This document shows, piece by piece, positions 5,954 to 8,221 of a stretch of 64,000 nt of DNA. Origin of the DNA: an uncultured Atopobiaceae bacterium (GTDB lineage Bacteria; Actinomycetota; Coriobacteriia; Coriobacteriales; Atopobiaceae). The notes beneath the pieces were generated by a model that saw only the letters and a program-made list of their open reading frames with translations, ran no database searches and was not told where the DNA came from. The first letter of the stretch is position 1. Every line of letters begins with the position of its first letter. The position numbers and the translations under genes were made by a program. The stretch covers positions 248,001 to 312,000 of the forward strand of contig CALULO010000001.1 of the NCBI GenBank assembly GCA_944321515.1, read 5' to 3'.

Positions 5954-7183
5954 CTAGTGCACGGGCTGGAGGCCAGAGCCGGGACCCTGGACCTTGGACC
6001 AGGTCTTGGACTGCAGGCCGTGAAGCTCGATGAAGCCGCGGGCGGCGGTGTGGTCGAAGGTGTCACCCTCATCGTAGGTGGCGAGGTTGTAGTCGTAGAG
6101 GCTGTACGGGCTGCGGACGCCGTCGACGAACAGGCCGCCCTTGCAGAGGATGATGCGCACGTCGCCGGTCACGAACTTCTGCGTGTAGGCGTTGTACGCG
6201 TCGATGGCGTTGCGGTTCTGGGAGAACCAGAGGCCGCGGTAGACCGTGGAGGCCCACTCAACGTCCATCTTGGCCTTCTGCTTGAGGGTCTCCGCGTCGA
6301 GGCAGAGCTGCTCGAGGGTCTGGTGGGCCTGGATGAGCAGCAGGGCGGCGGGGCACTCGTAGCACTCACGGCTCTTGATGCCGACGACGCGGTCCTCGAT
6401 CATGTCGATGCGGCCGTAGCCATTGCGGCCGGCGATCTCGTTGGCCTTGATGATGAGGGAGAGCAGGTCCATCTTCTCGCCGTTGAGGGCGGTCGGGATG
6501 CCCCCCTCGAAGCTGATCACGACCTCCTCGGGGTCGGCGGAGCAGTCCTCGAGGTTGTTGGTCATCGTCCAGATGTCCGCGGGCGGCTTGTTCCAGGTGT
6601 CCTCAAGCACGCCGCACTCGATCGCGCGGCCCCAGAGGTTGTCGTCGATGGAGTAGGGCTTCTTCTTGGTGGTGGGAACGGGCACGCCGTTCTTCTCGGC
6701 CCACTCCATCTCGGAGTCACGCGTGGTGAGGTCCCACACGCGCACGGGAGCGATGATCTCCAGCTCGGGGTCGAGGGCACGGATGCAGGTCTCAAAGCGC
6801 ACCTGGTCGTTACCCTTGCCGGTGCAGCCGTGGGCCACGTACTTGGCACCATACTGGTGGGCGATGTCCACCAGGTGCTTGGAGATCAGCGGGCGGGAAA
6901 GGGCGGAGAGCAGCGGGTAGACGCCCTCGTACTTGCCGTTGGCCCAGATCGCCTTGGAGAGGATCTTGTCCGCGTACTCGGCGCGCATGTCGACGGCCTC
7001 GGAGGCGATGGCGCCCATGTCGAGCGCCTTCTGCTTGATCCAGGAGAGGTCCTTCTCGTCCTGGCCGACGTTGCCGCAGATGGCGATGACGTCGAGGTTC
7101 TTCTCGACCTGGAGCCACTTGACGATGACGGAGGTGTCCAGACCACCGGAGTACGCGAGTACGACCTTTTCCTTCTCAGCCAT
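5954..7183 (-). CDS. argG: Argininosuccinate synthase
   Basis: ArgG joins citrulline and aspartate using ATP to make argininosuccinate, the substrate of ArgH. The 409-residue protein has the family length. The N-terminal PP-loop reads VVLAYSGGLDTSVIVKWL (residues 7-24). AHGCTGKGNDQVRFE and the ATP/aspartate-binding KKPYSIDDNLWGR follow. All expected blocks are present. The gene lies behind a 25-residue leader peptide, RRQNRR-containing, and a terminator/antiterminator pair, so its expression is probably controlled by arginyl-tRNA supply. It is followed by its own terminator and is not in an operon with argH. Confidence 0.98.
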   Translation of the reverse strand: MAEKEKVVLAYSGGLDTSVIVKWLQVEKNLDVIAICGNVGQDEKDLSWIKQKALDMGAIASEAVDMRAEYADKILSKAIWANGKYEGVYPLLSALSRPLISKHLVDIAHQYGAKYVAHGCTGKGNDQVRFETCIRALDPELEIIAPVRVWDLTTRDSEMEWAEKNGVPVPTTKKKPYSIDDNLWGRAIECGVLEDTWNKPPADIWTMTNNLEDCSADPEEVVISFEGGIPTALNGEKMDLLSLIIKANEIAGRNGYGRIDMIEDRVVGIKSRECYECPAALLLIQAHQTLEQLCLDAETLKQKAKMDVEWASTVYRGLWFSQNRNAIDAYNAYTQKFVTGDVRIILCKGGLFVDGVRSPYSLYDYNLATYDEGDTFDHTAARGFIELHGLQSKTWSKVQGPGSGLQPVH

Positions 7184-7227
7184 GTTGTTTCCCTTCGGTT
7201 AGGTGGCTAGCTGCTAGTGACGTGCAT

Positions 7228-7260
7228 ACAAGAAAGCCCCGACGTCGCGGGGCGCTCGAA
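7228..7260 (-). terminator. Attenuator terminator in the argG leader
   Basis: On the minus strand GCCCCG (7253-7248), loop CGACGT and CGGGGC (7241-7236) form a hairpin followed by TTTCTTGT, about 45 bases before argG. Its 5' arm plus loop (CGCGACGTC, 7249-7241) is a perfect 9-base complement of GACGTCGCG at 7307-7299, directly after the leader peptide's stop codon. That second segment can therefore act as the antiterminator strand. Confidence 0.75.
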
Positions 7261-7306
7261 GCCTGGTTGGCGATAAGGACCGGCAGGTTGCGGCGACACG
7301 CGACGT

Positions 7307-7384
7307 CTAGGGCGTGATTCGTCGGTTCTGGCGTCGGGTGGGGAGGAGGACCGCAGCGGGCATGGACACGCTGTGAACGTTCAT
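7307..7384 (-). CDS. Arginine-rich leader peptide of argG
   Basis: A 25-codon reading frame starts at ATG 7384, nine bases after a near-perfect ribosome site GAGGAGG. It begins MNVHSVSM and contains RRQNRR close to its end. Of the four arginine codons, three are CGA and one is CGC; CGA is usually slowly read. The stop TAG (7309-7307) overlaps the antiterminator segment by one base. A ribosome stalled at the arginine codons leaves that segment free; one reaching the stop codon covers it. This is the layout of a classical amino-acid attenuator. The peptide itself is not expected to have a function. Confidence 0.75.
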   Translation of the reverse strand: MNVHSVSMPAAVLLPTRRQNRRITP

Positions 7385-7414
7385 AAACGTTAGCCTCCTC
7401 AGAAGTTGAGCGGG

Positions 7415-7456
7415 CGCGGGCTATTGGCCCGCGGCTGTCTGACGTGGCTGACTATA
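7415..7456 (-). promoter_or_regulatory. Possible argG promoter -10 and leader hairpin
   Basis: TATAGT on the minus strand (7456-7451) is a good -10 hexamer, but no convincing -35 was found at normal spacing. Between it and the leader peptide, CGCGGGC/GCCCGCG (7415-7421 and 7427-7433) forms a 7-bp hairpin without a T-tract. Confidence 0.35.
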
Positions 7457-7579: not shown

Positions 7580-8221
7580 CTAGCCGGCGACGATGGCGAT
7601 GCCGCTGCTGGTGCCGATGCGATCCGCGCCAGCGTCGACCATTGCCTGCGCCTCCTCTGCGGTGTGGATGCCGCCGGACGCCTTGACCTTGCAGCGGTCC
7701 CCGACGGTCTTGCGCATGAGCGCGACGTCCTTGACGGTCGCCCCGCCGCTCGAGAAGCCCGTGCTCGTCTTGACGAACGCGGCACCAGCCTCGACGGAGA
7801 GCTCGCAGGCGCGGACGATCTGCTCGTCCGTGAGCAGGCAGCACTCGAGAATGACCTTGACGCAGCGACCCTGGGCCGCCTCGACGACCCCGGCGATGTC
7901 GGCGCGGACGGCGTCGTCCTCGCCGGCGATCAGCCAGCCGATGTTGATGACCATGTCAACCTCGTCCGCCCCGTCGGCGACGGCACGCGCGGCCTCCGCG
8001 GCCTTGGAGGCCGGGGCCATAGCACCAAGCGGGAAGCCGACGACCGTGCACACGTTGACGGGGCTCCCCGCAAGGCGGGACGCCGCCATGGGGACCCAGC
8101 ACGTGTTGACGCACACGGAGGCAAAGTCGTTCTCGACGGCCTCGTCGCACAGCTTCTCAATCTGGGCGCGCGTGGCGTTGGCCTTAAGCAGGGTGTGGTC
8201 GATCATCTTGTTGAGGCTCAT
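7580..8221 (-). CDS. deoC: Deoxyribose-phosphate aldolase
   Basis: Class I aldolase that cleaves 2-deoxyribose-5-phosphate to glyceraldehyde-3-phosphate and acetaldehyde. The start [16 protein letters not shown] is the family N-terminus; the longer frame upstream lies inside the transketolase gene. The 213-residue protein contains the Schiff-base lysine in FVKTSTGF and a second lysine in VKASGGIHT. Its ATG overlaps the transketolase stop (ATGA). It is the last gene of the PTS/transketolase operon. Because the operon lacks nucleoside enzymes, the true substrate may be another phosphorylated sugar; that is inference. Confidence 0.93.

Follow-up and report, generated by a model that had tools for sequence, protein, structure and literature searches.

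Organisation of the argG leader

The window analysed here is a 64,000-nucleotide stretch of DNA from an uncultured Atopobiaceae bacterium. In it, argG is read from the minus strand and is preceded by a leader region, for which we describe the following features.

7451..7456, minus strand: -10-like box TATAGT (TACACT in some relatives), the presumed leader promoter, present in 28/28 genus-type upstreams
7416..7432, minus strand: 5' hairpin GCGGGC-CAATA-GCCCGC in the leader RNA, identified by eye and conserved
7394..7400, minus strand: ribosome binding site GAGGAGG of the leader frame; an in-frame start with an SD of at least 4 occurs in 55/67 distinct leaders
7307..7384, minus strand: leader peptide frame of 25 codons, MNVHSVSMPAAVLLPTRRQNRRITP and stop, read from the sequence (ATG to TAG)
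7319..7336, minus strand: putative regulatory codon cluster CGA CGC CAG AAC CGA CGA (RRQNRR), kept as far as Slackia and Parafannyhessea
7312..7316, minus strand: strand 1, CACGC, which by eye could pair with GCGTG at 7301-7297
7297..7307, minus strand: strand 2, the candidate antiterminator 5' arm, GACGTCGCGTG, at core+29 in 27/27 genus-type rows where found and covarying with strand 3
7241..7249, minus strand: strand 3, the candidate antiterminator 3' arm and the terminator 5' arm and loop, CGCGACGTC, read from the sequence
7236..7253, minus strand: intrinsic terminator hairpin GCCCCGCGACGTCGGGGC (strands 3:4), from the terminator scan; predicted P(terminator) 0.98 with strand 2 masked and 0.00 with it free
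7226..7235, minus strand: T-rich terminator tail TTTCTTGTAT, from the sequence and the terminator scan
5954..7183, minus strand: argG, argininosuccinate synthase, the gene presumed to be regulated; NCBIfam TIGR00032 at 489.9 bits and NF001770 at 548.4 bits, both above cut-off

The stop codon TAG ends in a G (7307) that also opens a 9-nt segment, GACGTCGCG (7307-7299), and this segment is the perfect reverse complement of CGCGACGTC (7249-7241). The hairpin GCCCCGCGACGTCGGGGC (7253-7236) is then followed by TTTCTTGT. The initial annotation of this DNA had listed the 25-codon frame (7384-7307) with its GAGGAGG, the RRQNRR cluster of four arginines, a stop codon sharing one base with the 9-base segment, the perfect complementarity of that segment to 7249-7241, and a terminator with a T-rich stretch just before argG. 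All of these were recovered in our analysis: the cluster lies within the leader peptide MNVHSVSMPAAVLLPTRRQNRRITP, the one-base overlap is exact, the terminator scan returned the hairpin at 7253-7236, and the two NCBIfam matches bear out the assignment of the downstream gene as argG. A further pairing, CACGC/GCGTG between strands 1 and 2, was seen by eye in the window and in several relatives, and is weakened in others (CTCGC). Three terminator-like sites lie in the 1 kb scanned, where 0.6 would be expected. Rfam matches to mir-1207 and v-snoRNA-1 on the window stretch scored far below the gathering score and were discarded; the mir-1207 match overlaps the terminator of deoC.

Upstream of the leader, deoC ends at 7580 and has its own terminator at 7532-7506. 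About 65 nt of sequence ahead of the leader are conserved, and the TATAGT/TACACT box stands at a near-fixed distance from the leader ribosome site in the 28 genus-type upstreams (the 29th row, L064, lies outside the genus). The initial annotation had named a transcription start downstream of 7307 as contrary to its reading. The conserved box, the presumed promoter, instead lies upstream of the leader, although no matching -35 accompanies the box and the promoter scan returned no sigma-70 site. In the 5' hairpin (7432-7416), one relative (L019) has GCAGGC/GCCTGC, with both sides changed, and others have one-sided changes.

Occurrence among relatives

The argG upstreams were collected from 80 loci on named genome contigs, which include Thermophilibacter, Olsenella, Tractidigestivibacter, Parafannyhessea, Collinsella and Slackia, and from unnamed relatives, together 204 loci with 151 distinct sequences (loci and genomes carry the labels L and G). 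The distinct upstreams comprise 67 of the RRQxRR type (type A), 29 of a Collinsella type (type C) and 55 of neither. Among genomes with a readable upstream, in a set that is no random draw and with family names inferred from the named loci, a leader precedes argG in 54/61 of the Atopobiaceae type (two divergent ones, L177 and L180, were typed by eye), 8/8 of the Slackia type, 30/39 of the Collinsella type and 0/17 others; it is absent from 7/61 Atopobiaceae-type and 9/39 Collinsella-type genomes. The 8 Slackia-type genomes were found by motif, yet they are all 8 argG-bearing genomes of that genus (g55), and the genome tally leaves out L146, a second argG copy of G256.

A class-wide motif search placed 16 of its 20 matches upstream of argG, the other 4 lying within long open frames. 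It gave no match outside Coriobacteriales, with a pattern that misses even the argG leader of the window's own genus (CCCGACG). The phylum-wide pattern matched 1/296 genomes, probably by chance; because most true leaders escape this pattern, its result does not bear on whether leaders are absent elsewhere than in the order. No match came from plasmids searched at the DNA level. A looser DNA pattern, RR-Q-x-RR, returned 111 matches on the window's own genome against 43 for the reversed control; it was uninformative without extra bases and was dropped.

Leader frame and arginine codons

A start codon with a ribosome site, open through the core, is found in frame 0 in 55 of the 67 distinct type-A leaders, and in the other two frames in only 2 and 1. 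The N-terminal part of the leader peptide varies in sequence and in length, with 9 to 23 codons ahead of the core, while the RRQxRR core is constant except at position x, where Asn, Asp, Gly, Ala, Ser, Met and Ile all occur. The first arginine codon (R1) is CGA in 61/67 type-A leaders, compared with 11/219 arginine codons (5.0%) in 13 genes sampled from the window's genome, where CGC accounts for 158/219. As the search pattern requires, all 67 have CGA or CGT at R5 and R6; the core CAG is kept in 65/67, and this codon choice, in part built into the pattern, is almost fixed, beyond the needs of counting arginine codons. CGACG at R5R6 and most of R1R2Q are prescribed by the type-A pattern, and the conservation counts at these positions hold partly by construction. 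Some relatives are without R1R2 (NRQMRR, IRQNRR), and a TCCCAG form also occurs.

Covariation and partner specificity of the competing helices

The pairing, codon and switch-model tests cover type-A rows, leaving aside the 55 neither-type and 29 Collinsella-type upstreams of the 151. For the alignment, 28 leaders were hand-picked for diversity with the window's genus left out. Across them, the antiterminator helix (strands 2:3) is paired in 80.4% of 363 cells and has changes on both sides in 8/13 pairs; slid versions of the register reach at most 53.5%. Its covariation is 0.281 versus 0.178 after shuffling, a value reached in 0/500 shuffles. The terminator is paired in 94.9% of 195 cells of the same alignment. 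A single-hairpin terminator was found in 50/66 distinct leaders and not in the other 16/66.

Each strand 2 also prefers its own strand 3. In 24 leaders, all outside the genus, the 2:3 duplex has a mean energy of -20.5 kcal/mol with own partners and -16.4 kcal/mol with swapped ones, and 0/20,000 permutations were as good. The full set of 50 gave -22.0 and -17.9 kcal/mol, again with 0/20,000 permutations as good. Both sets agree with a hand-picked set of 25, in which 23 duplexes are more stable than the mean obtained with shuffled strand 2, the exceptions being L082 and L179. Two leaders of the window's genus, L023 and L024, show a double change, GACGTCGCG to GACGTTGCG together with CGCGACGTC to CGCAACGTC; in two others, L019 and L021, strand 3 and the terminator are new and yet match the strand 2 of the same leader. 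The initial annotation had looked to relatives for a leader frame, arginine codons and complementarity that are kept while other bases drift, and for compensating changes in the helix; the comparison shows the former, and the latter appear in the 8/13 pairs and in L023 and L024.

Three genus-type leaders, L019, L021 and L025, appear to be degenerating, with R1R2 changed and the stop moved directly after RRI; in L025 no terminator was found, and both strands are lost by the pattern. In Slackia-type leaders (L138-L143 and relatives), a GGTCC ... GGAC pair between strands 2 and 3, seen by eye, seems to lengthen the antiterminator; it is uncounted here because the alignment splits it.

Spacing and folding model of the proposed switch

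Strand 2 was located in 27 of the 29 rows, the exceptions being L025 and L064. In all 27, which are genus-type, it begins 29 nt downstream of the core's first base, and in distant leaders at about core+27. When R6 occupies the A site, the ribosome covers the RNA to about core+27. With this footprint, a stalled ribosome would hide strand 1 and free strand 2, and a ribosome at the stop codon would hide strand 2.

Folding the leader RNA had been put forward as a check by the initial annotation. In our equilibrium model, in which the RNA outside the ribosome is folded, the window leader is predicted to switch, with P(terminator) of 0.00 when the ribosome is stalled and 0.98 when it has passed. The model covers just the 51 leaders with a single-hairpin terminator, and 35 of them (26/26 genus-type, 9/25 others) have P(terminator) below 0.5 stalled and above 0.5 passed. 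With strand 2 shuffled, only 3/51 fall below 0.5 when stalled. In the equilibrium model, 16 of the 25 leaders from outside the genus retain the terminator with the ribosome stalled as well; these might switch kinetically, because the antiterminator can form first during transcription. The free, untranslated window leader RNA folds as the antiterminator, so argG would be on without translation, a basal control unlike that of trp.

Proposed mechanism and alternative explanations

The frame, the codons, the conserved competing helices and their spacing can be read directly from the DNA. From these we infer translation of the leader, stalling, the signal, termination and the response of argG. Taken together, we consider it very likely that the argG leader is a ribosome-mediated transcription attenuator measuring arginine, a mechanism for which the comparison gives strong support; conservation, compensating changes and the switch model all agree with the attenuator that the initial annotation had proposed. 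RNA polymerase would make the leader while a ribosome behind it translates the 25-codon frame. With plentiful Arg-tRNA, the ribosome would pass RRQNRR, reach the stop at 7307 and cover strand 2 (7307-7297), which would leave strand 3 free to form the terminator (7253-7236) and turn argG off. When Arg-tRNA is short, the ribosome would stall on the rare CGA codons (7324-7319) with its leading edge just before 7307 and cover strand 1; strand 2 could then pair with strand 3 (7249-7241), no terminator would form and argG would be transcribed.

The RNA switch might be the same and the signal different. If RRQxRR itself stalls the ribosome as a nascent peptide, with arginine or another small molecule as the possible effector, the signal could be high arginine. 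The Q kept between the arginine pairs in 65/67 type-A leaders would suit such an arrest peptide, as would the Collinsella core RRQRAISRRR, which also opens with RRQ. However, position x accepts seven different residues from Asn to Ile, R1R2 is lost in the NRQMRR, IRQNRR and TCCCAG relatives, the near-fixed synonymous codons point to a constraint on codon or RNA, and the rarity of CGA agrees with codon starvation; we give peptide arrest a small chance. Still less probable is that the frame is incidental and the region acts as an RNA-only regulator, namely a riboswitch or a T-box, or simply as a terminator between two genes. A ligand could switch two exclusive helices, and the leader RNA does have an additional 5' hairpin, but the start codon and SD are conserved almost only in frame 0, deoC already has its terminator at 7532-7506, and Rfam gave no family on the window stretch (sub-gathering matches aside) or at the leaders of seven other loci, the T-box covariance model included.

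GC-rich DNA easily yields complementary 9-mers and arginine-rich frames, so coincidence has to be weighed as well. A complement of at least 9 nt arose in 103/5000 dinucleotide shuffles of the strand-2 region and is only moderately unusual, and the whole-leader folding energy is no better than that of shuffles (z -0.48). In a scan independent of the motif, short SD-preceded, arginine-clustered frames occurred upstream of argG in 27/59 distinct upstreams (at least 4 of the 27 being unrelated frames by eye) versus 58/1180 shuffles, so such frames do arise in shuffled upstreams. What lifts the leader above chance is its conservation, seen in the excess of these frames over shuffles and across three families, and the covarying, partner-specific complementarity of strands 2 and 3, and we regard coincidence as scarcely credible.

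Comparison with known systems

Ribosome-mediated attenuators are known for the trp, his, leu, ilv, thr and phe operons. Like them, the argG leader has clustered cognate codons, mutually exclusive antiterminator and terminator helices and a terminator just before the gene; unlike them, the amino acid would be arginine and the target the single gene argG. The fungal arginine attenuator peptide also ties a short upstream frame to arginine, but it is eukaryotic and translational and acts through the nascent peptide, and we claim no relation to it. Other controls of arginine genes are the arginine T-box and ArgR with its ARG box, and ArgR is present in these genomes.

The nearest precedent is the Salmonella speF leader, for which passages of PMC6386406 describe a short upstream frame, orf34, with two consecutive arginine codons that pause the ribosome at low arginine and select the RNA structure. 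According to the same passages, the gene under orf34 control encodes ornithine decarboxylase, an enzyme of polyamine synthesis, and the control acts by way of Rho, RNase G and the speF ribosome site, whereas the argG leader has an intrinsic terminator before an arginine-making gene. The argG leader is not of the speF type, given that its gene is argG and its core is RRQxRR rather than the DUF2618 HIRRT. Among surveys, passages of PMC1262725 state that the arginine operons of the Actinobacteria examined there had no conserved RNA structure ahead of them, the sections of PMC9413887 on his attenuators in Firmicutes mention Coriobacteriales only for HisR, and argG does not appear in the text of PMC8632094, which has uORF motifs. 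Within open-access PMC, a scope that leaves absence unproven, our searches turned up no biosynthetic gene with an arginine attenuator. If our reading is right, arginine would join the amino acids whose biosynthetic genes are preceded by a switch that the ribosome reads, here in common gut bacteria, Collinsella among them, and in gut anaerobes the leader could serve directly as an in vivo reporter of charged tRNA-Arg.

The Collinsella variant

Collinsella leaders end in RRQRAISRRR followed by the stop (UCC CGA CGA CGA UAA). In them, the partner of CCCGACGAC is GTCGTTGGG or CGTCGGG or, when the register is shifted, a segment GTCGTCG, and a T-rich tract follows; this hairpin is in the minimum-energy fold of 8 of the 12 leaders shown (not L205, L224, L168 or L170). 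Because CCCGACGAC pairs with the terminator's 3' arm, the arginine codons may themselves be the terminator's 5' arm; we hold this less firmly, the invariant 5' side showing no covariation. Our tentative suggestion, somewhat short of an even chance, is that one order contains two architectures, both working without ArgR: a trp-like four-strand switch in Atopobiaceae and Slackia, and in Collinsella a set of stalling codons (UCC CGA CGA CGA stop) that double as the terminator 5' arm, so that a stalled ribosome would remove half of the terminator. Codon starvation and a nascent-peptide pause could also be combined, as the fixed RRQ suggests. If so, two RNA layouts would have come from one leader-peptide theme.

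A direct pairing of this style was also considered for the window, between CCCGACG (7338-7332) and the terminator's CGTCGGG. CCCGACG is missing in relatives such as L042 and L048, so that pairing is not needed there, and we set it aside.

Relation to ArgR

Arginine is the textbook amino acid under a repressor protein, not attenuation, and the initial annotation had accordingly noted that arginine genes are usually under ArgR. This fits the window's genome, which has an ArgR (PF01316, G000:C2:80557) and its argCJBD operon elsewhere: TATGCA palindromes resembling ARG boxes are found no more than 150 nt from argC in 7/7 ArgR-positive operons and 0/5 ArgR-negative ones. The ArgR-negative members of the window's genus without such palindromes are those with the argC upstreams L226, L227, L231, L232 and L236. 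Since ArgR and ARG-box-like palindromes before argC occur in the same genome, argG would be the exception. No convincing arginine leader was found before argC in 12 operons.

All 12 Atopobiaceae-type genomes with a readable argG upstream and without a PF01316 match keep the leader, two of them in degenerate form (G003, G015), so leader control of argG would not need ArgR. Both a PF01316 match and a leader are missing from G110 and G251, two genomes from outside the three families, and a rule of no ArgR, hence attenuator, does not hold. With argC following ArgR and argG not, these genomes would provide a natural case in which ArgR loss can be studied. The crude hexamer TATGCA/TGCATA occurs anywhere in 18/96 leader-type upstreams and in 25/55 leaderless argG upstreams, which gives a weak hint that leader and ARG-box hexamer may exchange for each other; in the window's argG upstream the hexamer lies only just after the terminator.

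Nine Atopobiaceae-type argG loci have neither the leader nor the TATGCA box (L062, L066, L067, L070, L074, L076, L077, L079 and L081). In two of them, L077 and L079, argG is preceded by a common block, TGTGTCGGTTGTGTTGCG, and given this block the leaderless genes perhaps follow a third control mode. There is also a second argG class, with about 60% identity to the gene of the window, whose members often adjoin argR (G043, G053, G057 and others); the attenuated argG of the window's genus is not near its argR match.
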